From NCBI GenBank assembly GCA_030426245.1, contig JAUHYZ010000001.1, positions 1 through 64,000 of the forward strand: a DNA stretch of 64,000 nt, written 5' to 3'. Below the pieces are notes generated by a model. It worked only from the letters and a program-made list of their open reading frames with translations, ran no database searches and was not told where the DNA came from. This DNA is from Alphaproteobacteria bacterium (GTDB lineage: Bacteria; Pseudomonadota; Alphaproteobacteria; Sphingomonadales; Sphingomonadaceae). Every line of letters begins with the position of its first letter. The first letter of the stretch is position 1. A program made the translations under genes and the position numbers. This document shows positions 17,244-64,000 of this stretch, in pieces.

Positions 17244-17810
17244 ATGATGAACGAGACTTCCGCACCGCCCATCGGCCTGGGCGCAGACCTCGCGGGGGCC
17301 GATGCCGAACAGCGCCGCGTGGTCGAACTGATCAAATCCGGGCCGCGGGGAAACGTGCCGAGCCCGTTCCTTGCCATGCTCGATGCTCCAGGGCTCGCGG
17401 AGGCGATTCAGTCTGTCGGGGCGGCCATACGGTACAGATCGACGTTGCCGGACGATCTGCGTGAACTCGCCATCCTTACGGCGGCGGCCAGGGCGAACTG
17501 CGGCTATGAGTGGAACCATCATCTGCCGATCGGCATGGCGGCAGGCCTCCCGCACGCCGCAATTGCGGCTGCGCGTTCCGGAGCAGCGAGCGAAGCGCCC
17601 GCCCCACGGCAAGCTGCCGTCATTTCGCTGTGCCTCGAAGCCTTTGCGGGCGGCAAGGCCAGCTCGGGAACGCTTGCCGTGGCAATCGAAGAGCTTGGGC
17701 GGACGGGTGCGACCGAGGTCGTGGCGATCGCAGGCTATTACCCGCTGCTTGCGGGTTTCATACGCACTGCAGGTTTCGATGAGGATTTCGAACCGCTGCA
17801 GGACGGCTGA
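17244..17810 (+). CDS. Carboxymuconolactone decarboxylase (CMD/AhpD-fold) family protein
   Basis: 188 aa, all-helical CMD fold, with RELAILTAAARANCGYEWN and GMAAGLPHAAI in the usual places. The CxxC of AhpD peroxidases is absent and Glu-Trp-Asn-His-His occupies the active-site helix. The ATG at 17244 follows GGCAGGGAAAAG; the longer frame would include the LysR-type box. It is divergent from the extradiol dioxygenase gene. PcaC-type decarboxylation of a lactone acid, or a thiol-independent protective role, are both possible. This is one of four CMD-fold genes within 14 kb. Confidence 0.78.
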   Translation: MMNETSAPPIGLGADLAGADAEQRRVVELIKSGPRGNVPSPFLAMLDAPGLAEAIQSVGAAIRYRSTLPDDLRELAILTAAARANCGYEWNHHLPIGMAAGLPHAAIAAARSGAASEAPAPRQAAVISLCLEAFAGGKASSGTLAVAIEELGRTGATEVVAIAGYYPLLAGFIRTAGFDEDFEPLQDG

Positions 17811-21529: not shown

Positions 21530-23035
21530 TTAGATCGCCATGGCGACCGATTTGGTCTCCGTATAGGCCTCGATGCCTTCACGCCCATTTTCGCGGCCCC
21601 AACCGGATTGCTTGAAGCCGCCGAAGGGTAGTGCGGGATCGAGACCGCCGCCATTCACTCTGACAGTGCCGGCTTTCAGCTTACGTGCGAGCCGGTGCGC
21701 GGCGGAGAGATTGTTGGTCCAAACCACCGCGCCCAGGCCGTAGTCGCTGGCATTGGCCTGCGCGGCGAGAACCTCCAGATCGTCATCGCCGAACGACATG
21801 GCGCACAGGACGGGGCCGAATATTTCCTCGCGGCGCACCGCCATTTCGGCCTGGGTATCGGTCAGCACGGTCGGCGCCACAAAGGAGCCGGGCCCGGCGA
21901 TATCGCGCGCACCCGCCCGCATCTTTGCGCCTTCGCCCAGGCCGCCATTCACATAGCCCATAATGCGCTCGCGCTGGCTTTCGCTGATCACGGGGCCCAT
22001 CTGCGTTTCGGGATCGAAGCCTGCGCCCACTTTCATGGAATCGGCGATGCGCGAGACACCTTCCACAACCTCGTCAAAATGGCGCGAATGCACGAACAGG
22101 CGGGAGCCTGCATTGCAGACCTGTCCGGCATTGCCGAAGATCGATCGGGCGGCCCCTTCGATGGCCTGCGGCACATCCGCGTCGGGCATGACGATGACCG
22201 GCGTCTTCCCGCCAAGCTCCAGCGTGACGCGTTTGAAGTTGCCCGCAGCGGCCTTGATGATCAGGCGCCCGACTTCGGTCGATCCGGTAAAGGTCACCTT
22301 GTCCACGCCAGGATGTTCGGTCAGCGCGGCCCCGGCGGTTTCGCCGAAACCGGTCAGCAGGTTGAAGGCGCCTGCGGGAAAGCCGACTTCCTCGATCAGA
22401 TGAGCCAGCCTGAGCGCGGTCAGCGGCGTTTCTTCCGCCGGTTTCAGGATCACCGCGCAGCCTGCCGCCAGCGCCGGAGCGATCTTGGCGCAGGCCATCG
22501 CGATCGGCGCATTCCAGGGCACGATCTGGGCGACGACGCCGACGGGTTCCTTCAGCGTATAGGCATGCCATGTGCCCGGGCCGGACAGGGCAATGCTTTC
22601 GCCATTGAGCTTGGTTGCCCAGCCGGCGAAATAGCGCAGCTGATCGATCGCGTAGGGAATGTGGAAATAGCGCGCATCGCGCACCGGCATGCCGTTATCC
22701 AGCGTTTCGAGTGCGGCAAGCTCATCCGCATTCCGCTCCAGCGCATCGGCCAGGCGATAAAGCAGCAAGGCACGCGCATTAGGTTTCATATCTGCCCACT
22801 CCGCACTCTCCATGGCCTTGCGTGCGGCCTTTACCGCAAGGTCCGCATCCGCTGCCGAAGCGCTTGCGATGTTGGCCAGCTTCTCCCCCGTTGCCGGATC
22901 CTGCGTAGCGAAGGTTTCGCCTTCCCGCGGATCGGCCCAGGCACCACCGATGAACAGGCGATGCGGGCCCGCGGCGAAGCGGCGCGCTTCTTCCAGGGCG
23001 GGCACGGCGTCGGGCGCGGTCTTGGTGGCATTCAT
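21530..23035 (-). CDS. NAD(P)+-dependent aldehyde dehydrogenase
   Basis: 501 aa. It has the ALDH motifs IVPWNAPIAMACAKIAPALA, the FTGSTEVGR cofactor loop, the catalytic Glu in VTLELGGKTP, the nucleophile in GNAGQVCNAGS, and the EEIFGPV segment. The open frame reaches 23182, overlapping the divergent GMC gene; ATG 23035 with GAGGAG 8 bp upstream gives a normal length. It likely oxidises an aromatic or aliphatic aldehyde to the acid. It is divergent from the GMC oxidoreductase across a promoter containing the second IclR-type palindrome, so an alcohol to aldehyde to acid sequence with the GMC enzyme is plausible; vanillin-type aldehydes from the HCHLs are another option. Confidence 0.92.
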   Translation of the reverse strand: MNATKTAPDAVPALEEARRFAAGPHRLFIGGAWADPREGETFATQDPATGEKLANIASASAADADLAVKAARKAMESAEWADMKPNARALLLYRLADALERNADELAALETLDNGMPVRDARYFHIPYAIDQLRYFAGWATKLNGESIALSGPGTWHAYTLKEPVGVVAQIVPWNAPIAMACAKIAPALAAGCAVILKPAEETPLTALRLAHLIEEVGFPAGAFNLLTGFGETAGAALTEHPGVDKVTFTGSTEVGRLIIKAAAGNFKRVTLELGGKTPVIVMPDADVPQAIEGAARSIFGNAGQVCNAGSRLFVHSRHFDEVVEGVSRIADSMKVGAGFDPETQMGPVISESQRERIMGYVNGGLGEGAKMRAGARDIAGPGSFVAPTVLTDTQAEMAVRREEIFGPVLCAMSFGDDDLEVLAAQANASDYGLGAVVWTNNLSAAHRLARKLKAGTVRVNGGGLDPALPFGGFKQSGWGRENGREGIEAYTETKSVAMAI

Positions 23036-26008: not shown

Positions 26009-27090
26009 ATTTCGACCTCAGTGAAGATCAGGTCCTGCTCGCCGAAATGGTGGGGCGCATGCTGGGCGATCATGCCGCGAACGATCGGCGTGATCCCGGG
26101 GCCGAATGGCGCGATTGCCTGGGGCAGGGGCTGATTGCCTTGCCCTTTGCGGAAGATCAGGGTGGCCTGGGCGGCGGGCATGAAGAAGTCATGCTGATGA
26201 TGGAGGCCATTGGGCGGAACCTGTCTCAGACGCCATATCTGCAATCCGTGCTGCTCGCCGGGCGCGTTTTGGCGTTAGCGGGACGGATGGAACTTGGCGA
26301 TCTTCTGGATGGGGCACAGCGTCACTGCCTCTGCCTCTATGAACCTGGCCAGCGCTACCGTTGGGCGACGCCTGCAACGCGCGCGGAACGCTGTGCTGAA
26401 GGCTGGTCCATCACTGGCGCAAAGGTCTCGGTGCCCGATCTTGACGATACATGTGCACTGATCGTGCCTGCGGCAACGGCGGAGGGCCTGGTCCTATTTC
26501 TCCTGCCGCCGGGAATTTCGGGCGTCACTCTTGATATTCGCCCGGCACCCGATGGCCGAACAGCAGCGAATGTGAATTTCGCAAGCGTGATTGTGCCGGT
26601 GGATGCCGCGATCGGGGATCCGGCAGGCAATGAGGCGCTGCTCGCCGAAGCGCTGGACGGGGCGGTGCTTGCAAGCTGCGCGGAATCGATCGGCGCAATG
26701 GAGCGACTGCTCGATCTCACGGTTGAATATTGCAACATCCGCGAACAGTTCGGTGCAGTGATCGGCAGCTTTCAGGCATTGCAGCACCGGGCGGCGGATA
26801 TGCTGATTGCGATAGAGAGGGCGCGATCGATCACGATCTATGCTGCCTCGATGATGGATGCACCGGCCGCCCGGCGCAGCGTGGCGGTTTCCGCGGCGAG
26901 AGCGCTGGTAAACCGCTCATCGCGATTCGTAGGGCAGCAGGCAATCCAGCTTCATGGCGGGATAGGCCTGGCGAGCGAATGCGCGGCCGGGGCATATTTT
27001 CAGCGCCTGACGGTTCTGGAAACCTTGCTGGGTGATACGGAGCATCACGTGGCTGCAGTAGAACGCAGTGGCGGACTGCTTGCCGCTTAG
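26005..27090 (+). CDS. Acyl-CoA dehydrogenase, subunit 2 of a pair
   Basis: 361 aa, shorter and more divergent ACAD. The N-terminal helices (DQVLLAEMVGRMLGD) and the C-terminal domain with QLHGGIGLASECAAG are recognisable. The middle beta domain is weakly conserved and lacks the SEPxAGSD-type flavin loop. This is typical of the accessory subunit in heteromeric FadE complexes, where FAD binding is shared with the partner (family knowledge). It starts with GTG overlapping the stop of the preceding gene by 4 bp, implying translational coupling and equal stoichiometry. Its stop overlaps the convergent CMD gene. Confidence 0.86.
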   Translation: MNFDLSEDQVLLAEMVGRMLGDHAANDRRDPGAEWRDCLGQGLIALPFAEDQGGLGGGHEEVMLMMEAIGRNLSQTPYLQSVLLAGRVLALAGRMELGDLLDGAQRHCLCLYEPGQRYRWATPATRAERCAEGWSITGAKVSVPDLDDTCALIVPAATAEGLVLFLLPPGISGVTLDIRPAPDGRTAANVNFASVIVPVDAAIGDPAGNEALLAEALDGAVLASCAESIGAMERLLDLTVEYCNIREQFGAVIGSFQALQHRAADMLIAIERARSITIYAASMMDAPAARRSVAVSAARALVNRSSRFVGQQAIQLHGGIGLASECAAGAYFQRLTVLETLLGDTEHHVAAVERSGGLLAA

Positions 27091-50093: not shown

Positions 50094-50693
50094 TTACTTT
50101 GCCGCGAAGATCAGGCTTCCCGGCCCAAGCCGGTCCAGCACTTCGCCAATCTTGTTTTCTTGTACGGCAAAGCAGCCCAGGCTTCTGCCGATGCGGCCCT
50201 GCTGGCCGATCAGGTCGCGGCTCACATAACCGGCACCATGGAGGACGATGGCGCGGTCGAATGCAAGGTCGTTCGACGGATCCAGCCCGTGCAGTCTGCG
50301 CGAATGGCCGTGTTTGCCGTAATAGGATTGACCGGTGACATAGCTGCCATCGGACGAAGCGTTCGAACCGGGGCGGTTCGAAAAGCGCTTCAGCCAGCCA
50401 CTATGTCCCGGATCGGAACCGCGGCCATGGGCCACCAGATACGATTGTGCGATACGGCCATTGGCGACGTCCACGAGGTGGAAACGTTGTTCACGCGAAT
50501 GACGTGCGAAGTCTACTATGCCCAGCAGATCGCGTTGGACGATGCTGGAACTGTGTCTATCAAGTGCGGCCATTGCCTGGGAAAGCAGAGCGGGCCTTTC
50601 GGCGCTTTTCACCGCAGCGAAAGCTGGCGATGATACAAGCCCTGCAGATCCGGCAACGATAGCACCGAGAAAATGGCGCCTGTTGATATTCAT
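50094..50693 (-). CDS. Murein L,D-transpeptidase catalytic-domain family protein (YkuD_2)
   Basis: 199 aa. N-terminal twin-arginine-like signal MNINRRHFLG with hydrophobic stretch and AFA-A cleavage site. The YkuD_2 region contains LHGAGYVS (His152) and the catalytic GRSLGCFAV (Cys174). Likely a periplasmic peptidoglycan-modifying enzyme. It is divergent from another L,D-transpeptidase across a 75-bp promoter, suggesting coordinated cell-wall remodelling. Confidence 0.82.
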   Translation of the reverse strand: MNINRRHFLGAIVAGSAGLVSSPAFAAVKSAERPALLSQAMAALDRHSSSIVQRDLLGIVDFARHSREQRFHLVDVANGRIAQSYLVAHGRGSDPGHSGWLKRFSNRPGSNASSDGSYVTGQSYYGKHGHSRRLHGLDPSNDLAFDRAIVLHGAGYVSRDLIGQQGRIGRSLGCFAVQENKIGEVLDRLGPGSLIFAAK

Positions 50694-50768
50694 TTTCGAT
50701 CCCGAATATGCGTTTTAGCTTATATAGGATTCAACTGGGTGCATTCAAATTTGGGGAAGGTTAACGCG

Positions 50769-51953
50769 ATGAAACGACTTTGGCTTGCGATGACTGCATT
50801 TGCCGTCTGCGTCGCAGCGGCGCCTGCTCCAACCCCTGCGTCCGCTCAGGATTCGTCTCCGGCATGGTCAGCCGACAATATCGCCACGCTCGAACGCTGG
50901 GTCGCCATGGCGCCGCGTGACGCCATGCGATCACCTTCCGCCAATGCGCTTCACGCCGCCATTGATCGGTCCGATCCGGATGCAGTGGACCAGGCGGCGA
51001 CGGCTCTGGCCTTGCGGCTCGCCCGGATGCACTTGCTTGGCAGTGCCCCGCAAAGCGAGCGCGTGGGCTGGCATATCGAAGATACCGACAAGGCGATCGA
51101 TCTGGAGCGGCTGCTCAGTCAATCTCTTTCGGTCGGTACGCTCGATGCCTATTTCGCCAGTCTCTCGCCGCGCCATCCCGACTATGCCGCCCTGCGGACC
51201 GCCTATAGCGCCGAAACCGACACGCAGCGCCGAAGGGCCATTGCCAGAAACATGGAACGCTGGCGCTGGATGCCGCGTTCGCTCGGCAATGATTATATTC
51301 TGGTCAACGCCGCCCAGTTCGAAGCGCGCTTGTGGAGGAATGGAGAAAAAGCCGGAACATGGCGGGTAATTGTCGGCAAGCCGAGCACGCCGACACCTGT
51401 GTTCAGCACCACCGTGAGCGGCGTAATCCTCAATCCCTGGTGGGAGATACCCGCCAGCATTGTGCGGGAGAGCATCGGCTCGCTAGTTCGCCGCAATCCA
51501 GCCTATGCGCAATCGCGCGGCTATGTCTGGAGCGATGGCAGATATCGGCAGAAGCCGGGTCCGAACAATGCGCTTGGGGAAATGAAGCTGGCCATGCCCA
51601 ACCGCTTCAGCGTTTACATGCATGACACGCCCAACAAGGAACTGTTCGAGCAGGAGACCCGCGCATTCAGCCATGGCTGCATCCGCACCGGCGATGCCTT
51701 GGGCTTTGCTGCCACATTGCTGGAAGGGGTAAAGAGCCGCGAGGAAATCGATGCGATTGTCGAGACACGCAAGACGACGACCGTCGAGCTTCCGCAAAGC
51801 CTGCCGATTTACATCACCTATTTTACCGCAGCGCCGGATGCCGATGGGAATGTGACGATCCTGAACGATCTATACCACCGCGACGGGCGTATTTCCGTGG
51901 CGAGCGCAGTCGAAACCGAATGTGCAGGCTGGCAAACTCCAGCCATGTCCTAG
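50769..51953 (+). CDS. L,D-transpeptidase (YkuD domain, LdtD-like)
   Basis: 394 aa from ATG 50769 with a Sec signal peptide (PASA-Q near residue 26). The N-terminal scaffold (30-170) is helical; the C-terminal YkuD domain (about 175-370) has HDTPNKELFEQETRAFSHGC with catalytic His302 and Cys304 (SHGCIR). It forms 3-3 peptidoglycan cross-links or anchors lipoproteins. Followed 11 bp later by the two-domain kinase gene. Confidence 0.9.
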   Translation: MKRLWLAMTAFAVCVAAAPAPTPASAQDSSPAWSADNIATLERWVAMAPRDAMRSPSANALHAAIDRSDPDAVDQAATALALRLARMHLLGSAPQSERVGWHIEDTDKAIDLERLLSQSLSVGTLDAYFASLSPRHPDYAALRTAYSAETDTQRRRAIARNMERWRWMPRSLGNDYILVNAAQFEARLWRNGEKAGTWRVIVGKPSTPTPVFSTTVSGVILNPWWEIPASIVRESIGSLVRRNPAYAQSRGYVWSDGRYRQKPGPNNALGEMKLAMPNRFSVYMHDTPNKELFEQETRAFSHGCIRTGDALGFAATLLEGVKSREEIDAIVETRKTTTVELPQSLPIYITYFTAAPDADGNVTILNDLYHRDGRISVASAVETECAGWQTPAMS

Positions 51954-53549: not shown

Positions 53550-53565
53550 TTGGTACCGGTAACTA
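53550..53565. promoter_or_regulatory. LacI-like operator candidate 1
   Basis: TTGGTACC/GGTAACTA: a CG-centred palindrome, 6 of 8 arm positions complementary, 63 bp before the first SDR start. It is shared with 55175, 59271 and (half) 63310. Confidence 0.65.
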
Positions 53566-53627
53566 AAAAAGGGCATAAGCCGGACGAATCCAAATCATCA
53601 GTCCGGCGCCCTGGAGGAGAGAGACCC

Positions 53628-54365
53628 TTGGCATCACCAATCATGCTCGTGACCGGCGGCAGCCGAGGTATCGGCGCGGCCATCGTCCGCCTTGCCGCTG
53701 AACGCGGCTATGACGTTGCGTTCAATTATGCCAGCCGGCGGGACGAAGCTGAAAAGGTCGCGGACGAAGTCAGGGCCAAGGGGCAGCGGGCACTCGTCGT
53801 TCAGGCCGACATGGCCCGTGAGGCGGACATCGTGAAGATGTTCGAGCAAACTGATGCCGAGCTCGGCCGGCTCGACTGCATGGTTTACAATGCCGGTATC
53901 GGCCCTACGCCCGGCCGGCTTGCAGATGCCGATTGGGCGGAACTGCGCAGGGTGATGGATGTGAACCTGCTGGGCGCGCACATTGCATGCCGCGAGGCAG
54001 TCAAGCGCATGTCTACCGAGCGGGGCGGGCAGGGCGGAAGCATCGTCCTTATGGGTTCGCGCGCTGGCTATTATGGCGCACCTGGCAGGGCGATCGTCTA
54101 TGCGACATCCAAGGGCGGCATGGACGCGCTCAATTACGGCCTCGGCAAGGAAGTGGCAGCCGAAGGTATCCGAGTGAACCTGGTTTCGCCGGGGCCGATC
54201 TCTACCGACATGAACAATGAACAGTCCGCTCCAGAGCGGGTGAAAGAGATACCGATGGGCCGCTATGGCAAGCCGGAAGAGGTCGCCTCTGCAGTGCTCT
54301 TCCTTGCCTCCAGCGAAGCATCCTTCGTCTCATCGGCTAGCCTCATGGTCAGCGGCGCACGCTGA
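53628..54365 (+). CDS. Short-chain dehydrogenase/reductase (SDR), copy 1
   Basis: 245 aa. A TTG start at 53628 is chosen because GGAGGAGA ends 7 bp before it; the frame opens 78 bp earlier, over the operator. Cofactor motif VTGGSRGIG, NAG in MVYNAGIG, catalytic Ser in MGSRAG and Tyr-x3-Lys in VYATSK, then SPGPISTDM. Classical NAD(P)-dependent alcohol/ketone oxidoreductase. Forms an operon with a second, related SDR. Confidence 0.9.
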   Translation: MASPIMLVTGGSRGIGAAIVRLAAERGYDVAFNYASRRDEAEKVADEVRAKGQRALVVQADMAREADIVKMFEQTDAELGRLDCMVYNAGIGPTPGRLADADWAELRRVMDVNLLGAHIACREAVKRMSTERGGQGGSIVLMGSRAGYYGAPGRAIVYATSKGGMDALNYGLGKEVAAEGIRVNLVSPGPISTDMNNEQSAPERVKEIPMGRYGKPEEVASAVLFLASSEASFVSSASLMVSGAR

Positions 54366-54395
54366 GACAGGCCCGGAAAATCAGGAGAACGCAAG

Positions 54396-55136
54396 ATGAC
54401 CGCACCTGTTATGCTCGTCGCTGCCGGAAGCCGCAGCATTGGCGCTGCGATTGCGCGCAAGGCCGCGGATGACGGCTATGATGTCGCCATCAACTACGTA
54501 AGCAACCGGGAAGCCGCAGAAGGTGTCGCCGAATATGTCCGGGGGAAGGGCCGCAAGGCAGCGCTAATCCAGGCAGACATGACCCTGGAAGACGATATCC
54601 GGAAAATGTTCGCTGAATTCGACCAGCATTTCGGCAGGCTCGATTGCCTGGTTTACAATGCTGGCGGATCTGGCGGGAAGGGATCCCCGCTTGCCGATGT
54701 CGCTACCGAAACCTTGCGCAAGGCGCATGATCTCAACGCCCTGGGCGCCCACTTCTGTGCCGCCGAGGCGATCCGGCGAATGTCGACAAAGAATGGCGGT
54801 GAGGGCGGAAATATCGTGTTCATCACTTCGCGCTCGGCCGAATATGGCAACCCGGGCCTGGCGGTCTGGTATGCCTCCACCAAGCGCGCGCAGGAGGTGC
54901 TGGCGACCGCGCTCAGCAAGGAAGTGGCGGAGGAAGGCATCCGCGTGAATGCCGTCTCGCCCGGGCCGATCCATACCGATGCCAACGATCCGAACGTATG
55001 GCCGGAGCGGATCAACTGGATTCCGATGCGTCGCTTCGGCAAGCCGCCTGAAGTGGCCAACGCAGTGTTGTTTCTGGCCTCGCCGGAAGCGTCATTCATC
55101 ACAGGCGTGATCCTCAATGTATCGGGAGGACGGTAA
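54396..55136 (+). CDS. Short-chain dehydrogenase/reductase (SDR), copy 2, altered cofactor motif
   Basis: 246 aa, clearly paralogous to copy 1 (similar FGRLDCLVYNAG, NPGLAVWYASTK, SPGPIHTD, LFLASPEASF). The Tyr-x3-Lys and Ser are kept. The glycine-rich TGGSRGIG motif has become AAGSRSIG, losing Thr and two glycines, so cofactor binding may be altered. ATG 54396 has AGGAGAACG upstream. The two SDRs may act as a heteromeric pair or on opposite stereo-isomers. Confidence 0.86.
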   Translation: MTAPVMLVAAGSRSIGAAIARKAADDGYDVAINYVSNREAAEGVAEYVRGKGRKAALIQADMTLEDDIRKMFAEFDQHFGRLDCLVYNAGGSGGKGSPLADVATETLRKAHDLNALGAHFCAAEAIRRMSTKNGGEGGNIVFITSRSAEYGNPGLAVWYASTKRAQEVLATALSKEVAEEGIRVNAVSPGPIHTDANDPNVWPERINWIPMRRFGKPPEVANAVLFLASPEASFITGVILNVSGGR

Positions 55137-55174
55137 TCGCCGGCTTTGATGGAAGTGACATTTTTGTTTGAAAA

Positions 55175-55190
55175 CAGGTACCGGTAACAG
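55175..55190. promoter_or_regulatory. LacI-like operator candidate 2
   Basis: CAGGTACC/GGTAACAG, the same core as site 1 (ten bases, GGTACCGGTAAC, identical). It lies about 190 bp before the beta-propeller gene, in the 247-bp gap after the SDR operon. Confidence 0.65.
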
Positions 55191-55383
55191 GAATCGATTG
55201 CGGATGAGCAGGCAGGACCATAAGGTCTGAGCAAGGCTGGGACATGGCTTGCACGGCGGGAAGAACAGCCAGCCGTACTGACGAACCGGGCGGCCCATAA
55301 GGTAGAAAATGCCGGGCATATTTCGAATGGATAGCCGGGCGCCGAATGGCCGCCCGGGAACGATTGAATGAGAGGATGATGGA

Positions 55384-56406
55384 ATGGCGAAAGAGGAAGT
55401 CCGTTTCGAACTGGTGCCCAACTGGGAAAAGTGCCCCGAGGGCGACGAATATTCGCATGAGGACGTCGCTGCCGTGGCGTGCGATTCGAAGGACAGGGTC
55501 TATCTTCACACCCGCAATGCGCACCGCGTCATGGTCTATGACGAGGATGGCAACTTCATAAAGAAGTGGGGCGACGGTGTGTTCGGCCGCGCCCATGGTA
55601 TGACGATCAAGGACGACATCTGCTATTGCACCGATGACATCCAGAGTGTGATCCGCGTGTTCGACCTGGACGGCAATTTCCAGTGGCAGCTCGGCGAGCC
55701 ATTCAAGGTGACCGACACCGGCTATGGCAATATCCGCGGGCGCAAGGCCGAGATCCATCATAACGAATTCGTCGAACGCGCCATGGGCCCGTTCAATTGC
55801 TGCTGCAACGTCGCGGTCGCTTCGAACGGCGATATCTTCGTTGCCGACGGGTATGGCAATGCACGCATCCATCACTTCGACAAGGACGGCAATCTGCTCA
55901 ACAGCTGGGGCGAAGTCGGTACTGAGCCGGGGCAGTTCCATCTGCCGCACGGGATCGCGCTGGACAATGACGAGAACGTCATCGTCTGCGATCGCGAGAA
56001 CGACCGCTTGCAGTTTTTCACCCGCGAAGGCGAGTTCATCAAGGAATGGACGGACGTGCTCCGCCCGACCGACTGCACCGTGGATGAGGACGGGCTGATC
56101 TACGTTTCCGAGCTTTGGCGTCCTGCGGAGCCGGGGCAGGGAAGCTTCGTACATGGCTTCCCCGATACCGATCTGCCTGGCCGAGTGACCGTTTTCTATC
56201 CCGATGGAACGATCGCCGCGCGTTGGGGCGCGGATAGTGACAACCGCACGGCACCAGGGAACTTCATCGCCCCGCACGGCCTTGCGCTGGATAGCAAGGG
56301 CAGCCTTTATGTCGCTGAAGTTTCGACGACATTTGGCGGTATTCGCAAGATCCCGAAGGATGAAACCTGCGCGCATCAAATCCAGAAATTCCGCCGCGTA
56401 CGGTAA
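55384..56406 (+). CDS. Six-bladed beta-propeller (NHL-repeat) protein
   Basis: 340 aa with at least five NHL-type repeats (for example DGNFIKKWGDGVFGRAHGM, GNLLNSWGEVGTEPGQFHLP, GEFIKEWTDVLRPTDC). Similar to the propeller of peptidyl-alpha-hydroxyglycine lyase and to SMP-30/gluconolactonase-like folds, both metal-dependent. No signal peptide, so cytoplasmic. A cluster of three Cys (FNCCCNVAV) sits mid-protein. A lactonase or lyase role in a sugar-acid-like pathway is possible but unproven. First gene of a three-gene operon. Confidence 0.78.
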   Translation: MAKEEVRFELVPNWEKCPEGDEYSHEDVAAVACDSKDRVYLHTRNAHRVMVYDEDGNFIKKWGDGVFGRAHGMTIKDDICYCTDDIQSVIRVFDLDGNFQWQLGEPFKVTDTGYGNIRGRKAEIHHNEFVERAMGPFNCCCNVAVASNGDIFVADGYGNARIHHFDKDGNLLNSWGEVGTEPGQFHLPHGIALDNDENVIVCDRENDRLQFFTREGEFIKEWTDVLRPTDCTVDEDGLIYVSELWRPAEPGQGSFVHGFPDTDLPGRVTVFYPDGTIAARWGADSDNRTAPGNFIAPHGLALDSKGSLYVAEVSTTFGGIRKIPKDETCAHQIQKFRRVR

Positions 56407-56418
56407 TTGGGGGGCATG

Positions 56419-57138
56419 ATGCCACAACCACTGGTCGCCAACCTCGTCTGCGGCAGTCCCTGGCGCAATCACGACTATGACAATGCACGGCTGCGTCTTG
56501 GCCAGGTACTTTACGATTTGAACGGGATCAGGACAGATTGCTACCAGGATTATGAGGATCTTGGCGGCATTGCGCTGGGCGATCTGCTCGTGACCTATAC
56601 CTCGCAGATCGAGGTGACCGAAAAAGCTTCGACCAATCTTCGCCGCTGGCTGGAGAAGGGCGGCCGCTGGTTCGCGATGCACAGCACCACCTCGGTGGCG
56701 GGCAATATGGCGATGGCTAGCCTGCTCGGTACCCAGTTTATCGATCATCCGCCCTATCATGAGTTCACTGTGAACGTGATGAAGCCGGACGATCCGTTGC
56801 TGGAGGGGATATCGGACTTTACCGTCACGGACGAGCTGCACTGCGTCGAAAAAGTTACCGAGGACATCGAGGTGCTGCTCCAGGCGACCTGGGGCGGCAG
56901 GGGCATTCTCGGCAAGGACCACGAAGTGGCGGAACGGCCGCTAATGTACCGACGCAGTATCGGGGATGCCGGGGGCGGGGTGCTCTATCTGGCCTTGGGC
57001 CATGCAAACCGGCCCTATGATAAGCCGCGACCCAACTATCCTGACCAGCCCGACTATCGCGGCCCGTGGGGCAGTGAGCCTTTCGACACAATCATACGCC
57101 GCGGCTGTGAATGGGCGGCCAGACGCAAGGAGTTTTAG
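56419..57138 (+). CDS. ThuA-like domain protein
   Basis: 239 aa. Glutamine-amidotransferase-like ThuA fold: VANLVCGSPWRNHDY, GDLLVTYTSQIE, LEKGGRWFAMHSTTS, FIDHPPYHEFTV, LALGHANRPY. ThuA members occur with keto-sugar and disaccharide catabolism. The second of two adjacent ATGs (56419) is better spaced from the GGGGGG ribosome site. It follows the propeller gene by 12 bp. The reaction of ThuA proteins is poorly defined. Confidence 0.8.
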   Translation: MPQPLVANLVCGSPWRNHDYDNARLRLGQVLYDLNGIRTDCYQDYEDLGGIALGDLLVTYTSQIEVTEKASTNLRRWLEKGGRWFAMHSTTSVAGNMAMASLLGTQFIDHPPYHEFTVNVMKPDDPLLEGISDFTVTDELHCVEKVTEDIEVLLQATWGGRGILGKDHEVAERPLMYRRSIGDAGGGVLYLALGHANRPYDKPRPNYPDQPDYRGPWGSEPFDTIIRRGCEWAARRKEF

Positions 57139-57142
57139 TGAA

Positions 57143-57496
57143 ATGGCAGTTGAAATGATGCGGCTTATCCTCAAGCCCGCCGGAGCCGATGAGGCGACCG
57201 CCGCTGCAAAGCAGATCTGGGTCGATCTGGCCGTGGATAGCGAAACGGGGCAGAGTACGGGACCGTTTCCGGCGTGGGGCCGGGTGGGCGATTGGCAGCA
57301 GCCTGACACTTTGGTTCCATTCACACTGATGATGGACGGACGGATGGATACCGGCATTTATGCGAGCGAAAATCAGCGCAGCGATGTGCTTGAAATTCGC
57401 AAGGCCGACATTGGCGAGGGCAAGATGATTGTGCTCAAATCCGGAAGTGAAACGAGCAATTATGTGATCGAGAGCCTCAAGCCGCTTATCGGCTGA
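57143..57496 (+). CDS. Conserved-looking 117-aa protein, function unknown
   Basis: 117 aa from ATG 57143, 4 bp after the ThuA stop, so certainly co-transcribed. Mixed alpha/beta, acidic, no signal or membrane segment; motifs VDLAVDSETGQSTGP, PAWGRVGDWQQPD, VIESLKPLIG. I do not recognise the family. The longer open frame upstream overlaps ThuA and is rejected. It may be a small subunit of an enzyme with ThuA or the propeller. Confidence 0.7.
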   Translation: MAVEMMRLILKPAGADEATAAAKQIWVDLAVDSETGQSTGPFPAWGRVGDWQQPDTLVPFTLMMDGRMDTGIYASENQRSDVLEIRKADIGEGKMIVLKSGSETSNYVIESLKPLIG

Positions 57497-57531
57497 GGCG
57501 CGGCCTTGTCGGCCTGTCGGAGACGCGCGCT

Positions 57532-57984
57532 TCAGTTCTTCATCCAGGGATTGTCCTTGTCGGCCTGAATCTCCGGGCCGTGACCGATCCGCGAAAACAG
57601 CTTGATCACGCGGCCGTCCGGATCTTCGATGCCGACGGCCCAGGATAGTCCGGTCGCGAAAACGCCGGAGTGGTTGATGTCGCCCAACCGGTCCAGATGC
57701 TCCGACCATGCTTCCAGCGCGGCAAGGTCGGGGACATGCAGCGTCACTGGATCGAAGCGTTTTGCCGCCTTGGCATGTTCGGGCAGAAGCCGCAGATCGA
57801 GTGTCGCAAAGCCATCGATGCGGCAGATATAGGCATAGATGTTCCCGTCCGTGTCGATATGGTCGGCCGCTGCGATGCGTTCTGCGCCGAACACGCGTTC
57901 GTAAAATGCAAGGGAACGTGCACAGTCCGCCACTGCGAATTTCAATGTGCGGAGCCCGTCGAGCTTGGGTGCATCAGCAGTCAT
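57532..57984 (-). CDS. VOC-superfamily protein
   Basis: 150 aa, one VOC unit: LKFAVADCARSLAFYERVFGAERI, FATLDLRLLPE, INHSGVFATGLSWAVGIEDPDGRVIKLF. It looks like a metal-poor or non-classical VOC: the first His is replaced. Downstream of the enolase-superfamily gene with a 42-bp gap, same operon. Possibly an epimerase or lyase of the acyl/sugar-acid pathway. Confidence 0.72.
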   Translation of the reverse strand: MTADAPKLDGLRTLKFAVADCARSLAFYERVFGAERIAAADHIDTDGNIYAYICRIDGFATLDLRLLPEHAKAAKRFDPVTLHVPDLAALEAWSEHLDRLGDINHSGVFATGLSWAVGIEDPDGRVIKLFSRIGHGPEIQADKDNPWMKN

Positions 57985-58026
57985 TCAATCTTGCCTTTCG
58001 CTAATCGGGATGCCCTGTTTCCGGCT

Positions 58027-59082
58027 TCACGCGGCGGCACATTTGGCGAGCACGTCTTCATCGAATTCCAGCCCGAGCCCGGCAGCATCCGGAAGAACCA
58101 GTTCGCCGTCCTCGATCTGCATCGGTTCCTTGAACAAAGGCTGGCCCCAAGGGACGAGGCCGACAATCAGACCATTGGGGACCGCCGCAAGCCCTCGGCT
58201 GAGCACTTCCGATGCCAGGTGGTTCACCACTTGCCGGCCATGGGCTTCGGCCATGTGCGCCACCTTCAGAAAGCCGGTGAATCCCAGATCCTGGTCGATC
58301 ATGACATAGTCGGAGCAACGGTTTTCCAACAGACGCGCGAACTCGTGCCCATATTGAAATATTTCGCCGGCGCAGGTGCGCTGTTCGATTGTATCGGTCA
58401 CCTGGCGCATGGCGTCGTAATCGTGAGAGGCGACCGGATCTTCGATCCAGAACAGGCCGAGTTCTTCGGTTCCCCGGGCGAAGCGGACGGCATTGCGCAG
58501 GCCCCACTGGAAATTGCCGTCCACGATGATCTCGACCTCGGGGCCCACGCATTCGCGGATAAAGCGTACATGCTCGATCGCTGCGTCCAGCGGGGCGAGC
58601 CCGCATGGGGCTTTGACGGCCCGGAAACCACGCCCGATCACATCTTCCAGATGCTTTGCCACCTTGTCCTTCGGCGGACCGGGCATGAGACCCCAATTGG
58701 CCGAGACAGGCATGCGGTTTCGAAATCCGCCGGCGAGTTTCCAAACCGGCAGACCCGCTGCCTTGCCCGCAAGATCCCAGCAGGCGACGTCGATCGCGCT
58801 CGCTGCCCGCAATTCCAGGCCGGACAGCGCTGCCCCCAACTGCCCGGCATAAACCGTCTTGTGAATGGCTTCTGTTCGTGTCGGGTCGGAACCGGTCAGG
58901 TGCTCGACCATGGCTTCGATCAGCAGAACCATGGGCCGTGTATTTCTGGGATTGACCCGGCTGACATAGGCGATTCCGGTCAAGCCTTCATCCGTCTGCA
59001 GCTGCAGCGTGACATGGCGGCCTTTCATCACGCCTTCGAAATCGACGTCGACCGCATCCACCCTGCATCCTGTGATTTTCAA
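58027..59082 (-). CDS. Enolase-superfamily dehydratase/racemase (mandelate racemase subgroup)
   Basis: 351 aa from a TTG start at 59082 with GGAGAAGG just upstream. The barrel carries Lys157 (VKAP), Asp188 (VDGN), Glu214 (WIEDP), Glu240 (AGE) as metal and base residues, and Asp265/His288 (VNHLASE) as the His-Asp dyad of the mandelate racemase subgroup. The K-x-K motif has lost its second Lys (K-A-P), as in some acid-sugar dehydratases. Expected: Mg2+-dependent dehydration or epimerisation of a 2-hydroxy (sugar) acid. Divergent from the MetE-like gene, with a near-perfect LacI-type palindrome between. Confidence 0.85.
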   Translation of the reverse strand: MKITGCRVDAVDVDFEGVMKGRHVTLQLQTDEGLTGIAYVSRVNPRNTRPMVLLIEAMVEHLTGSDPTRTEAIHKTVYAGQLGAALSGLELRAASAIDVACWDLAGKAAGLPVWKLAGGFRNRMPVSANWGLMPGPPKDKVAKHLEDVIGRGFRAVKAPCGLAPLDAAIEHVRFIRECVGPEVEIIVDGNFQWGLRNAVRFARGTEELGLFWIEDPVASHDYDAMRQVTDTIEQRTCAGEIFQYGHEFARLLENRCSDYVMIDQDLGFTGFLKVAHMAEAHGRQVVNHLASEVLSRGLAAVPNGLIVGLVPWGQPLFKEPMQIEDGELVLPDAAGLGLEFDEDVLAKCAAA

Positions 59083-59270
59083 TTGCCTTCTCCCATTTGC
59101 GGCATGCCTGGCACTATGCGCTTCGTCCTCGTAACGCTCGATCCTTGGCGCAAGCAGACCGCCTCTGACGGCAGCGTGCAATGTCCTTTGGCAAACCAGT
59201 ATGCCGACAGACGATCACATCCCTGGACAAGAATCGATATTTTGCCCTTCATACACACAAGGAAGGCTGC

Positions 59271-59286
59271 TAGGTACCGGTACCAA
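59271..59286. promoter_or_regulatory. LacI-like operator candidate 3 (best match)
   Basis: TAGGTACC/GGTACCAA: 7 of 8 arm positions complementary. It lies between divergent enolase and MetE-like genes, just before a TTGACA -35-like box (59290-59295). Confidence 0.75.
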
Positions 59287-59319
59287 AATTTGACAATCTT
59301 GTGGAGCGGATAAGAACTA

Positions 59320-60534
59320 ATGCGTCATTCGACCGATTATATTCTCAGCAGCCATGGCGGAAACCTTCCTCGTCCGGCGGAGTTCGACAAGCTTCTGGCC
59401 AAGGCCAGCGAGCATCAAGAAGAAGTTCAGGCAAAACTGCCCGGCGCGGTTGAATGGGTAATCGACAAGCAGATCGAATGCGGCGTCGATATCATCAATG
59501 ACGGCGAATATGTGAAAGCGGCCGAAGGCGGAAATTACGGGTCGTACATGGCGGCGCGTTCGGAAGGCTTTGGCGTGCGTGATACGCCTGAAGGCGCGAA
59601 GCCCAAGCGGGGCTTCACGGCCGAGCGCGAGATTCCCGACTTTCCGGGTTTTTATAAGAGCGGTCTTTGGTTCGCCGGATCCGGTGGCCCTATCCGCCCC
59701 GGCTTTGCCACTCCAGGCGGCCAGATGATCGATTTCAGCCGGCGCCAGCAGACCTGCATCGGCGACATCAAATATACCGGCTATGATCTGATCCAGGCCG
59801 ATATCGATGCGATCAAGAAGGGGCTCGAAGGCAAGAGCGGCGTCGATGGTTTCGTTGCTTCGCTCGGCCCGCTCAGCATGGGCGCCGGCAAGACCAATCT
59901 GCATTATGCAAGCGAAGAAGAATATATGATCGCTGTCGCCGACCTGATGCATGAGGAATATAAGGCGATCACGGATGCAGGTCTGATCGTGCAAGTGGAC
60001 GAACCCGAATTCGCCACCACTTGGAGTTTCTATCCCGACTGGACGGTTGAAGACCTGCGCAAATATCTCGATTTTGCAGTTGAGATCATCAATCACTCGC
60101 TGCGCGGATTGCCGGAAGAGCTCGTGCGATTCCACATGTGCTGGGGCTCGGGCCATCGCCCGCATGTCCACGATATCGGCTTCGAACATCTCGCGGACAA
60201 GCTGCTGGGCATCAATGCGCAATGCTATACGTTCGAAGCTTCGAACCCGCGCCATGCGCACGAATACCACGTCTTCGAGGATCTCAAGCTGCCCGATGGC
60301 AAGATCATCGCACCGGGCGTTGTCGGCCACTATACCGACCTTGTCGAACATCCCGAACTCGTCGCCGAGCGGCTGATCAACTATGCCAAGCTGGTGGGGA
60401 TGGAGAACGTCCATGCCAGCACCGATTGCGGCATCGGCTCGCGCGTCGGCCATGAAGAGATTGTGTGGGCGAAGCTCAAGGCCATGAGCGACGGCTGCCA
60501 GATTGCGACCAAGCGCCTGAAAGCGGGGCTCTGA
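59320..60534 (+). CDS. MetE C-terminal-like zinc alkyl/methyltransferase (methionine synthase II family)
   Basis: 404 aa, only the catalytic barrel of cobalamin-independent methionine synthase. Zn ligands His272 and Cys274 (FHMCWGSGHR), Glu306 (TFEASNPR) and Cys370 (STDCGIGSR) are all present; VDEP (227-230) matches the substrate pocket. Full MetE (about 750 aa) also has an N-terminal barrel that binds folate, absent here, as in epoxyalkane:CoM transferase and similar enzymes, so a thiol alkyl transfer other than methionine synthesis is expected. The start has GGAG 13 bp upstream. Followed by an MFS transporter. Confidence 0.85.
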   Translation: MRHSTDYILSSHGGNLPRPAEFDKLLAKASEHQEEVQAKLPGAVEWVIDKQIECGVDIINDGEYVKAAEGGNYGSYMAARSEGFGVRDTPEGAKPKRGFTAEREIPDFPGFYKSGLWFAGSGGPIRPGFATPGGQMIDFSRRQQTCIGDIKYTGYDLIQADIDAIKKGLEGKSGVDGFVASLGPLSMGAGKTNLHYASEEEYMIAVADLMHEEYKAITDAGLIVQVDEPEFATTWSFYPDWTVEDLRKYLDFAVEIINHSLRGLPEELVRFHMCWGSGHRPHVHDIGFEHLADKLLGINAQCYTFEASNPRHAHEYHVFEDLKLPDGKIIAPGVVGHYTDLVEHPELVAERLINYAKLVGMENVHASTDCGIGSRVGHEEIVWAKLKAMSDGCQIATKRLKAGL

Positions 60535-60676
60535 CCGGGGGGCGAATGCCATCCGTGACAGGTCTGCGAGCGTTGAGAAATCACGGCGCGCCGAAGCAAT
60601 GAATTGAAGCGAACACGCTACTCGTAATGGCGCAAGATAAGCTGCTGAAAAAAGGCAGCATGTGAGAGGATCATTT

Positions 60677-62077
60677 ATGGCGAGTACGACCGCAGACGGT
60701 GAAGCTCCAAAAGGCGAAGCCGCAGGTGAAGCCAAGAGCGAAGCCCAGAAGTTTGCAGAGATGCCATGGCCTCCGCGCAAGGATGCCTACTACTCGCTTT
60801 TCGTCATGACGATCGTCGTGATGTTTACGGTGATCGATCGCCAGATCATGAGCGTGATGATCGAGCCGATGAAAGAGACCTATCAGGTCAGCGATACCAT
60901 GATCGGCCTGCTGGTAGGCGCGGCATTTTCCATCACCTACGGGATCGCCGGTTTACCGATCGCCCGCTTCGCGGACCAGACCAATCGGCGCAATCTCGTT
61001 GCTGCGTCGATCGCCTTCTGGAGCGCTTGCACCGCCGCTTGCGGCATTTGTCAGAATTACTGGCAGATATTCGTCGCCCGGCTGGGCATCGGCATTGGCG
61101 AATCCGGCTATGGTCCGGCGGCGTGGTCGATCGCGACCGACAATTTCCCACGGGAAAAGGTCGCCATGGCAACCGGAACCTATGGCATTGGCGCCATGGT
61201 CGGTACCGGTATGGCCATGTTCATGGGCGGGGCCGTTCTGGCGTTGGTCGAGGGGATGCCATTGGTCGCCTTGCCCTTCGGCGGTGTGATTCACCCATGG
61301 CAATGGGCATTCATCATCGTCGGCCTGCCGGGATTGCTATGGGCAGGGGTCGTCATGACGACGAAGGAACCGCCGCGCCGGGGCGTGGCCGCCGGTGAAA
61401 AATCGCCAAAAGTACCACTCTCGGAACTGGGAAACTGGCTGAAAGATGATTGGCGGACCTATATCGCTGTCATTCCCGCATCCGGCATGAAGCAGTTGAT
61501 TGCCGCGGGCCAGCAGGTCTGGGGCGTAACGTTCTTCCATCGTGAGTTCGATTGGTCGATCTCCTACGCGGCCGTGATGATGGGATTGATGACGATCATT
61601 GTCTCCCCCGTCGCTATGATCCTTGGCGGCAAGCTTTCGGAATATCTGGCCAAGAGCGGCCGCCACGATGCAAATCTGCGCGTGGTCATTTATGGCTTGC
61701 TCGGTTCCGTGCCGTGCCTCGCTCTCGCGCCGCAACTGCCTAATGGCTATGCTTCGCTTACGCTGTTCGGCATCGGAATTTTCATCGGGACTTTGGGTTT
61801 TGGGCCCGGCATCGCCGCGTTCCAGGTTATCACTCCCAACCGCATGCGCGCACAGGTCAGTGCGCTCAGCCAGTTTGGCAGCAATGTTCTTGCTTATGCT
61901 CTGGCGCCGGTCATCGTCGCATTGTTTACCGACTACGTCTTCCGTGATCCGGCCATGCTCAAATATTCGATGACGGCAACCACGCTCTCGATGGGGATCA
62001 TAGCCCTCTTGCTCGCCGCACAAGGGTTGAAGTCATATGGCCGATCCTATGAACGGGCAGTGCGGGAGCATTTCTGA
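60677..62077 (+). CDS. MFS transporter
   Basis: 466 aa from ATG 60677 (AGAGG 8 bp upstream). A 35-residue polar N-terminus rich in Ala, Glu and Gly is followed by about 12 transmembrane helices. Motif A-like region between TM2 and TM3 is ARFADQTNRRNLV; helix 5 region has GIGESGYGPAAWSI. Resembles spinster/hexuronate-type permeases. Likely the uptake system for the pathway substrate. 142-bp gap from the MetE-like gene, same strand, and no own operator seen. Confidence 0.88.
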   Translation: MASTTADGEAPKGEAAGEAKSEAQKFAEMPWPPRKDAYYSLFVMTIVVMFTVIDRQIMSVMIEPMKETYQVSDTMIGLLVGAAFSITYGIAGLPIARFADQTNRRNLVAASIAFWSACTAACGICQNYWQIFVARLGIGIGESGYGPAAWSIATDNFPREKVAMATGTYGIGAMVGTGMAMFMGGAVLALVEGMPLVALPFGGVIHPWQWAFIIVGLPGLLWAGVVMTTKEPPRRGVAAGEKSPKVPLSELGNWLKDDWRTYIAVIPASGMKQLIAAGQQVWGVTFFHREFDWSISYAAVMMGLMTIIVSPVAMILGGKLSEYLAKSGRHDANLRVVIYGLLGSVPCLALAPQLPNGYASLTLFGIGIFIGTLGFGPGIAAFQVITPNRMRAQVSALSQFGSNVLAYALAPVIVALFTDYVFRDPAMLKYSMTATTLSMGIIALLLAAQGLKSYGRSYERAVREHF

Positions 62078-62098
62078 TCCTGCGATAGAGTTTGCCGA

Positions 62099-63184
62099 CT
62101 AGATTGGCGGGCGGTGCGACTGGCGCCAGATGAGAAGCGCCTCGGCAAGGGCCCGGGGGGAACCGAAGCCGCCGCTCTTGGTGATGAGAGTGAAGTCGCG
62201 TCCATTGGCATTGCCTGTCGCCATCGGCATTCCGGGTGCCAGGCTTTGGCGGGGCACGAGCAAATCGATGCCGGCTTGGCGAACGAAAGCTGCCGCGGTA
62301 TCTCCGCCGCTCAGAAGGATGGCGGAAATATCTTCTTCCTCGACAATTCTCAGCGCGGAAGCAGCAAGTCTGTTCGCAACGGCCGTGGGTTCCCGATCTG
62401 CTGTATCAGGGCGTAGCAGAATCGGATCGGCAGGCGCCGCTGGATGCGGTAATGGAGCATCTCCGACAATTTCCACATAGGTGATTTCCGACTGAGACAA
62501 TGTGGTAATCTGGCCCAGTGTGATCGGATCGCGTGAGCCGATCACCATAAGCATGCGCGCGTCGCCTGGCAAAACGGTGCGATGAACTGCCTGAGCCCTT
62601 TCGCTCCCTCTGGAAGCGATCGCATTCGCCATGGCCTCGGCAAGACCGCTTGCACCAACTGCGATAGCCGTCTGGCAGGCGCCGATTACCTCGTCTGCGA
62701 TGCGGGCCATTTCCGCCATGCCGCCGCAGTCTCTAACCTCCCATTCGTCTTGCCAGCCGACCAAGTCCGCTATTGGCAGGGAGCATTCCATACCGAATCC
62801 GGTGACCATCCCGCCGCCGGTAAAGCGCCCCATTGAAGGGATGGCAGGGCTGACGATCGCGCGTGTCCGGCCGCTCAGGCCCATGATCGCAGCCAACTCT
62901 GCAGCGATATTGCCTTTCATGCGGGAATCGACCTTTTTGAAGAGGCATTCGGCATTCCAGGGGGCGATAATCTGCCATGCCCTGGCCGTTGCGTGTGCGG
63001 CCTCTTCGGGCGCCATCTGACGGCTGTCGACATTGAGAGCGACGACATCGAAACCGGCGAAGGATGCTGTGCTTGCAGCATCTAGGGAGGGAAAGACCGC
63101 TCCTTGCAAGCCGGCCTCTGCAAATGCGACACAGCTGTCCAGTGCACCTGTCAGATCGTCGGCCAGGATCGCCAGTCGCAGCAA
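62099..63184 (-). CDS. Four-carbon acid sugar kinase family protein (DUF1537)
   Basis: 361 aa from a TTG start at 63184 (GGGAG 8 bp upstream, giving MLRLAILADDLTGA, the usual N-terminus); an ATG at 63199 lacks a ribosome site. Motifs ADDLTGALDSC, KKVDSRMKGNIAAEL, VSPAIPSMGR, LSGGDTAAA and KSGGFGSP define the family, which phosphorylates C4 sugar acids such as threonate and erythronate. Divergent from the pdxA2-type gene, exactly the partner used in threonate catabolism: kinase then PdxA2 oxidation and decarboxylation to dihydroxyacetone phosphate. Confidence 0.88.
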   Translation of the reverse strand: MLRLAILADDLTGALDSCVAFAEAGLQGAVFPSLDAASTASFAGFDVVALNVDSRQMAPEEAAHATARAWQIIAPWNAECLFKKVDSRMKGNIAAELAAIMGLSGRTRAIVSPAIPSMGRFTGGGMVTGFGMECSLPIADLVGWQDEWEVRDCGGMAEMARIADEVIGACQTAIAVGASGLAEAMANAIASRGSERAQAVHRTVLPGDARMLMVIGSRDPITLGQITTLSQSEITYVEIVGDAPLPHPAAPADPILLRPDTADREPTAVANRLAASALRIVEEEDISAILLSGGDTAAAFVRQAGIDLLVPRQSLAPGMPMATGNANGRDFTLITKSGGFGSPRALAEALLIWRQSHRPPI

Positions 63185-63309
63185 TGAACAAACTCCCATT
63201 CATCTATGCGGAGGCGCAGGCCACGAGTATACGTTCTAGCGCTTCCAGCATTCGGAACTAACGCTTTTCCTTACCATTTGCATGGGTTAGCGCAGATGGG
63301 AGCGGCGTT

Positions 63310-63325
63310 TTGGTACCGGGATCAG
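63310..63325. promoter_or_regulatory. LacI-like operator candidate 4 (half-conserved)
   Basis: Left half TTGGTACC perfect, right half GGGATCAG degenerate (5 of 8 positions). In the divergent promoter of the kinase and pdxA2-type genes, 21 bp before the ATG. Confidence 0.5.
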
Positions 63326-63345: not shown

Positions 63346-64000
63346 ATGCGCAAACTTCTGATCACGATGGGTGACCCGGCCGGAGTGGGGCCGGAGATCA
63401 TCTGCCGCGCGCTCGCCGAGTTGGATGAAGCCCGTCGATCCAGAATGGTGGTGATCGGAACGCTCGAAGTTTTGGAGCGGGCAAGGCAAGTCACAGGCGC
63501 AGATGTAATCTTCTCGTCTGCACCCCAGACTGGCGCGATCCATGTCGAGCATGTCGGCTTTCCCGGGCCCCTCCCGCAATGGGGCCGCGTGGATCCCGCG
63601 GCAGGCGATGCCGCCTTTCGCTATGTCGAACGGGCGGTCGGGATGGCTCAGGAAGGCGGCGGTTGCATTGTAACGGCCCCGATCAACAAGGAAGCGCTTA
63701 ACCGTGGCGGGCATCATTACGATGGCCACACGGGGATGATCGCGGCGCTCACGAAGTCGCCGACGTCCTTCATGCTGCTGGCTTCTGAGGTGCTGTCTGC
63801 GATCCATGTCTCGACCCATGTTTCGCTGCAGGATGCGATCGGGCGGGTCACCGCTTCGCGCGTGCTCGCTACTATCGAGGCAGGCCATCAGTTCTTTCGC
63901 AGGATCGGTATCGAATCTCCACGAATCGCCGTGGCCGGGCTCAATCCGCACTGCGGTGAGAATGGCTTGTTCGGTAGTCAGGAGGCGAAATTCATTGCGC
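63346..64000 (+). CDS. PdxA2-type 4-hydroxythreonate-4-phosphate dehydrogenase (partial at window edge)
   Basis: The first 218 codons are present and the gene runs off the right edge. N-terminus [38 protein letters not shown] (metal-His region) and [14 protein letters not shown] are PdxA hallmarks. In vitamin B6 synthesis PdxA oxidises 4-phosphohydroxy-L-threonine; PdxA2 paralogues next to DUF1537 kinases oxidise and decarboxylate 4-phospho-C4-acids. The neighbouring kinase supports the catabolic role. ATG 63346 is preceded by AGAGGTAAG at 12 bp. Confidence 0.85.

Follow-up and report, generated by a model that had tools for sequence, protein, structure and literature searches.

Regulators of the LacI family bind even-length palindromes with a CG centre close to promoters (sections of PMC4052901). 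GntR and IdnR of Escherichia coli are among the closest described systems to the one considered here; the GntR sites ATGTTACCGATAACAG and the consensus ATGTTACCCGTAACAT have the half-site TGTTACC (part of PMC10450161), and the PtxS box of Pseudomonas, TGAAACCGGTTTCA, is built around a CCGG centre (part of PMC5902321). We analysed a stretch of 64,000 nucleotides (the window) that opens a 400-kb contig (C60) in a 3.0 Mb draft genome of the Sphingomonadaceae (G000, 93 contigs), in which copies of a related palindrome, here called boxes, precede catabolic genes. We consider it very probable from sequence that a LacI-family protein encoded beyond the window (C60 LacI), nearest to the GntR/IdnR branch, represses about 13 box-bearing promoters of one catabolic regulon. 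The arrangement resembles the E. coli system in having a LacI-family regulator, a 16-base even palindrome with a TGTTACC half-site and several dispersed operons. It differs in its targets, which in G000 include TonB receptors and MetE-like, BKACE, PrpD, propeller and ThuA genes. Our literature search found no account of this regulon, of its gene set or of a sphingomonad LacI regulon, and the word 'sphingomonad' does not occur in the main text of one survey of LacI regulons (PMC4052901).

A first-pass annotation of the window had claimed four boxes, each in an intergenic promoter. All four are found at the positions claimed, and each is likely to lie 5' of a start codon, the starts having been chosen by eye from ribosome sites. 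The boxes are given below with their state in G002, a genome of the same genus:

53550–53565, no strand assigned: putative operator box 1, TTGGTACCGGTAACTA, 62 bases 5' of the TTG (53628) that opens the SDR pair; same 16 bases in G002
55175–55190, no strand assigned: putative operator box 2, CAGGTACCGGTAACAG, 193 bases before the ATG at 55384; identical in G002
59271–59286, no strand assigned: putative operator box 3, TAGGTACCGGTACCAA, in the divergent enolase/MetE-like promoter, 33 bases before the start at 59320; TAGGTACCGGTAACAA in G002
63310–63325, no strand assigned: putative operator box 4, TTGGTACCGGGATCAG, 20 bases before the start of the PdxA-family gene at 63346; identical in G002

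In this order they have 0, 2, 1 and 3 mismatches to the consensus of the first-pass annotation. Of the first three boxes, box 2 fits least well, with 4 mismatches to TTGGTACCGGTACCAA, yet it is unchanged in G002. At three mismatches or fewer the window holds 13 matches against 1.17 in window shuffles (largest 4); these 13 include five below coordinate 40,000 and two (61167 and 61200) within the MFS gene, and the boxes at 53550 and 59271 are each counted on both strands.

The excess extends to the whole genome. The refined box, TGNTACCGGTANCA, a repeated unit of 14 bases, has 19 matches in G000 at one mismatch or fewer against 7 for its reversed control, and TTGGTACCGGTACCAA at three mismatches or fewer is found at 16 places against 7. 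The 10-base core GGTACCGGTA alone is not enriched (8 + 10 matches against 10 + 12 for the reversed control) and was rejected as a mark of the regulon, with 18 matches against 22 over both strands; hence the excess is seen with the full palindrome and not with the core. By our own reading of promoter and coding placement, on a test that presumes a non-coding share of 10–15%, 13 of the 19 matches lie in promoters and 6 in coding sequence, and all five exact matches are among the former. Moreover, nine of the 19 fall inside C60:53,551-80,489 (26.9 kb), where 0.17 would be expected. Shared operators at several catabolic promoters, as first proposed, are thus borne out, and their number rises from four promoters to about 13.

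The block on C60 holds the boxes at 53550, 55175, 59271, 63310, 69844, 73782, 75037, 79209 and 80475. From left to right they stand 5' of the SDR pair; the operon of propeller and ThuA genes; enolase and MetE-like genes in divergent orientation; PdxA; two TonB receptors; BKACE2; the LacI gene, divergent from a set with PrpD, SDR, dehydrogenase and distantly lactonase-like genes; and a further SDR. Four more boxes, intergenic by our reading, lie elsewhere:

C60:309541: 5' of a third TonB receptor
C54:2273: a perfect palindrome, with an ABM gene on one side and a dehydrogenase/VOC pair on the other
C25:76516: flanked by a propeller/MFS paralog pair and an aldehyde dehydrogenase
C53:92623: 5' of another MetE-like gene

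Of the ten C60 promoters measured, nine have 20–73 bases from box to start, counted to the nearer gene of divergent pairs; the propeller operon has 193. In their even 16-base length, CCGG centre and distance before starts (20–193 bases), the boxes have the form of LacI-family operators. Six matches inside genes were rejected as regulon sites (C34:94409, C38:6697, C45:25580, C60:286983, C60:305761 and C60:316527). A candidate upstream of TauD at 83918 was not counted; the TTTGTTACCGGTCAC stretch there is also present in G002, but with its core changed.

The first-pass annotation had anticipated a LacI gene just past 64 kb, and one is present 15 kb past the window, at C60:79,317-80,399, with candidate starts near 79386 and 79422. 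Boxes flank it at 79209 and 80475; C60 LacI is likely to be autoregulated, as in E. coli GntR/IdnR. The protein matches Pfam LacI (9.1e-18) and Peripla_BP_1 (1.9e-28), placing it in the LacI/GalR family. Among NCBIfam models it scores highest with the Pseudomonas-type GntR (313 bits, cut-off 400), followed by IdnR (246, cut-off 500) and the gluconate-operon GntR NF011563 (208, cut-off 433). We rejected naming it GntR or IdnR, since every score is below the curated cut-off; by these models GntR/IdnR is its nearest branch, without membership. The half-site TGTTACC occurs in TGNTACCGGTANCA as it does in the E. coli consensus, so that operator type and regulator branch agree, short of the curated cut-offs. 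No gluconokinase or gluconate permease was seen next to the 13 box promoters.

A second LacI-family gene (C53:24,300-25,346) encodes a protein 35% identical to C60 LacI with the same nearest model, GntR (282 bits), and the same recognition helix, GVSRMTVSR, so that it could cross-bind. The boxes might then be bound mainly by C53 LacI, or by both proteins, in the manner of the GntR/IdnR overlap in E. coli, where GntR recognizes IdnR sites (sections of PMC4052901); among six genomes of the same genus, a close C53 LacI ortholog is moreover limited to G000 and G002. We regard this reading as improbable. S. xanthum (below) has boxes, but its only match to C53 LacI is the C60-type protein (34%), not an ortholog. 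No TACCGGTA core occurs in the 19 kb around the C53 gene, which is accompanied instead by three sites of the variant form TGNGACCGTTANCA (locus L138), a form known from the C53 locus and not from a genome-wide count; C60 LacI, in contrast, is encoded between two boxes. The variant sites, which lie in gaps or close to probable starts, are TGTGACCGTTAACA at 22869, TGGGACCGTTAACA at 26779 and TGTGACCGTTATCA at 17501 (reversed); on their account we lowered our estimate for C53 LacI from unlikely to more unlikely still. The two proteins would be sister regulators with separate operators, as the sites near each suggest. C53 LacI adjoins a gluconokinase (TIGR01313, 150 bits, cut-off 114) and a zinc alcohol dehydrogenase gene, which suggests that it is the better candidate of the two for gluconate.

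Boxes and C60 LacI occur together within the genus. Among 397 genomes of the family, a sample of a larger one, C60 LacI has a match at E ≤ 1e-75 in three: G000, G002 (96% identical) and Sphingobium xanthum NL9 (G104, 71%). The two same-genus genomes with the regulator have 19 and 18 boxes (reversed controls 7 and 7), and the four without it have 1, 2, 3 and 2 (reversed controls 19, 7, 16 and 13). The boxes are also better conserved than their surroundings: over 11 promoters compared between G000 and G002, a set that left out the TauD-upstream 83918, C25 and C53 promoters, 149 of 154 core positions are identical against 1101 of 1338 in 60-base flanks. Adding C25 (13/14 and 104/120) brings these to 162/168 and 1205/1458. 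Because the G002 promoters were chosen by the presence of a box, the comparison favours the core, and its Fisher test assumes independence between positions. Core and flanks differ most at the C54 promoter (core 13/14, flanks 60%) and at the first TonB receptor (12/14, 65%).

In S. xanthum, boxes stand at four comparable promoters:

33574: 5' of BKACE2, with two mismatches
43904: between SDRd and the LacI gene
45137: between the LacI gene and PrpD
C4:86312: 5' of a TonB receptor

The C4 receptor adjoins orthologs of the enolase-2, GMC, aldehyde dehydrogenase and ThDP genes found at 85–94 kb of C60. Elsewhere in this genome (G104:C6:46587, locus L136), a box-like TGATACCGGTGTCA lies between a 965-amino-acid receptor-like gene and a divergent gene.

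Could the boxes be chance or compositional repeats? By a tally made by eye, eight of the 397 family genomes reach at least 13 boxes: G000, G002, five members of genus g110, and G029. The five g110 genomes have 13–19 boxes and no LacI match at 1e-75, and four of them none at 1e-35, although an empty search result alone proves nothing. S. xanthum has the regulator, yet 5 boxes against 8 for the reversed control. Hence a count of boxes by itself is no proof, and the case is carried by clustering and promoter placement. The 19 boxes of one g110 genome (G180) are scattered over 3.7 Mb with one exact, whereas G000 has nine of 19 within 27 kb and five exact, all of them in promoters; genomes of the same genus that lack the regulator have one to three. 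Repeats of this kind, to which the unenriched 10-base core would also point, are in our judgement an extremely improbable source of the boxes.

Several further observations, along with the recognition helix common to both LacI proteins and the absence of a genome-wide excess in S. xanthum, weigh against a single regulon. The G000 draft is 79% complete. Some boxes overlap mechanically called open reading frames, as at 53550, where a TTG frame runs across the box but a good ribosome site favours 53628 as the start. Although the Pseudomonas GntR model is the best for C60 LacI, the published operator of that regulator has an AGCGCT centre and serves other genes (part of PMC5902321). The C53 box could be paired with none of the 18 matches in G002, and the C25 box has one core base changed there. 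The box-bearing receptor of S. xanthum is only 32% identical to TBDR1, and among 40 MetE-like loci examined, boxes lie in promoters at L064 (G002) only. Even so, the claim that LacI-type operators tie these catabolic promoters into one regulon is supported by the count, clustering and placement of the boxes, the cognate gene, co-occurrence in the genus, conservation relative to the flanks and the similar promoters of S. xanthum, a member of a distant genus.

The genes of the window around these boxes were assigned by Pfam searches and, where models exist, by scores against curated cut-offs; beyond the window we used our own open reading frame picker, and where genes are densely packed it overlooked some of them.

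53628–54365, plus strand: SDR oxidoreductase a (Pfam adh_short_C2), TTG start with ribosome site GGAGAGAG
54396–55136, plus strand: SDR oxidoreductase b (Pfam search)
55384–56406, plus strand: NHL six-bladed beta-propeller protein (Pfam NHL, 6.6e-18), whose C25 paralog is also preceded by a box
56407–57138, plus strand: ThuA-family protein (Pfam ThuA, 7.2e-17)
57143–57496, plus strand: protein of 117 amino acids 3' of ThuA, with no family match
57532–57984, minus strand: VOC/glyoxalase-fold protein (Pfam search)
58027–59082, minus strand: enolase-superfamily (MR/MLE) protein, TTG start at 59082 with ribosome site
59320–60534, plus strand: MetE-like protein (Pfam Meth_synt_2, 1.8e-11)
60662–62077, plus strand: MFS transporter (Pfam MFS_1)
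62099–63199, minus strand: short four-carbon-acid-sugar kinase-like protein (Pfam domains SBD_N/NBD_C)
63346–64000, plus strand: PdxA-family dehydrogenase, running on to contig position 64356 (TIGR00557, 338 bits, cut-off 290)

Few of these proteins can be named closely. The enolase-superfamily protein is nearest to L-talarate/galactarate dehydratase and far below its cut-off (166 bits against 500). The MetE-like protein fails the methionine synthase cut-off (best 79.7 bits against 406), and it has H272-x-C274 and C370, an H-x-C plus late C arrangement that we take to be the MetE zinc-ligand pattern (the fourth ligand was not checked). A second MetE-like gene, 5' of which lies the exact C53 box TGATACCGGTATCA, encodes a protein of 350 amino acids from a different subgroup (C53:91525-92577, L137). 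The 117-amino-acid protein is found at one of the 40 MetE-like loci, that of the 97% relative L064, and its structure model is of low confidence (mean pLDDT 63). Outside the window, the products of all three receptor genes with a box score above both TonB Pfam cut-offs, the second and third being 72% identical. BKACE2 (C60 74,049-75,065) passes NF053538 (485 bits, cut-off 430), and the metallo-beta-lactamase-fold gene beside it is distantly lactonase-like (71 bits against 375). A tartrate-dehydrogenase-like protein passes TIGR02089 (570 bits, cut-off 470); its gene and BKACE1 lie inside the block, and no box was found directly 5' of either. Pairs of L,D-transpeptidase-like genes, one large and one small and secreted, occur in the region of window positions 50094–51953 and at C54 28–4485 (37% and 43% identical); they hint at an old duplication linking the left end of C60 with C54, both of which carry box-bearing loci.

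The first-pass annotation had proposed a pathway ending in a four-carbon acid phosphate and dihydroxyacetone phosphate. As in the D-threonate/tetronate kinase–PdxA2 pathway, kinase-family and PdxA-family genes diverge around box 4. Unlike in that pathway, the G000 kinase is short and scores 130 bits against a D-threonate-kinase cut-off of 450, and PdxA, which passes the general PdxA cut-off, fails the D-threonate-phosphate model (303 against 583). The kinase-like protein may be a shortened or altered enzyme, since it has 366 amino acids and both domains match their profiles only in part; its homolog in G002 is 86% identical. Because many enzymes of the regulon also fall outside such a route, the proposed pathway is not established; a four-carbon-acid ending is plausible. 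BKACE2 recalls the cleavage of triacetate (3,5-dioxohexanoate) in phloroglucinol degradation by Clostridium scatologenes, in passing the same model (part of PMC10470551). That pathway is anaerobic and includes a reductase and a cyclase, and it differs in that BKACE2 of G000 stands beside the lactonase-like gene.

Most probably, the regulon operates as follows. C60 LacI would bind the TGNTACCGGTANCA palindrome at about 13 promoters, nine in the 27-kb block and four elsewhere, and without effector would block them, its own included. A hydroxy acid or sugar-acid-like compound derived from the substrate would bind the regulator and release it, upon which TonB receptors, MFS transporters and enzymes for one complex compound would be made together, the enzymes being oxidoreductases, lactonase-like, propeller, MetE-like, BKACE and tartrate-dehydrogenase-like proteins, kinase and PdxA. 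The three receptors and the MFS carriers would import the compound, oxidoreductases and lactonase-like enzymes would open it, BKACE enzymes would cleave beta-keto acids, and the kinase, PdxA and tartrate-dehydrogenase-like enzymes would finish four-carbon acids.

Alternatively, one regulator may serve two or more pathways, with one branch of tetronate/tartrate type and another of aromatic or terpenoid-like type, a reading to which we give somewhat short of an even chance. It would account for S. xanthum, where the BKACE2/PrpD/TonB part is under boxes, the window module is not at that locus and the two MetE-like loci fetched have no box. In G000, however, all parts appear to be co-controlled, and nearly all in G002. 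Homologs of the ABM (C54), propeller, ThuA, enolase and MetE-like genes moreover lie within 6.5 kb in Sphingobium nicotianae (L067), its propeller being closest to the C25 copy of G000, and a Sphingomonas metagenome-assembled genome (L073) carries this set together with SDR and MFS genes. This clustering is independent support for one functional set. Neither locus has a box, so that this control does not accompany the gene set everywhere; elsewhere among the 40 MetE-like loci, L066 has one box inside a gene and L100 one whose placement was not examined.

A propeller gene lies near the MetE-like gene in 25 of the 40 loci, a figure that is not a species count, as some loci are short and some genomes supply two; they range from sphingomonads to actinobacteria (Nonomuraea, Acrocarpospora and Pseudonocardia, Streptosporangiaceae included). 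Ten neighbour proteins, hand-picked around five loci or regions, were also profiled: amidohydrolase, HpcH/HpaI aldolase or DUF6282 genes occur in L067, L073, L074 and L082, and in G000 the C25 box has HpcH/HpaI and DUF6282 genes less than 7 kb away. We offer, tentatively, that the regulon serves the aerobic breakdown of a compound from plants or microbes by an undescribed pathway, where propeller and MetE-like proteins might form a conserved two-gene catalytic unit and the MetE-like protein might carry out zinc-dependent alkyl or methyl transfer in catabolism, not methionine synthesis.

As a control system this is a familiar type, ordinary for the LacI family, attached to a gene set that has no assigned purpose. 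The regulator, its roughly 13 promoters and the three predicted outer-membrane receptors would be expected to respond to the same compound. The regulon therefore offers a handle on the MetE-like, ThuA, NHL propeller, BKACE and DUF6282-neighbour enzymes that recur in other bacteria, and its inducer, once found, would assign many unannotated genes together.

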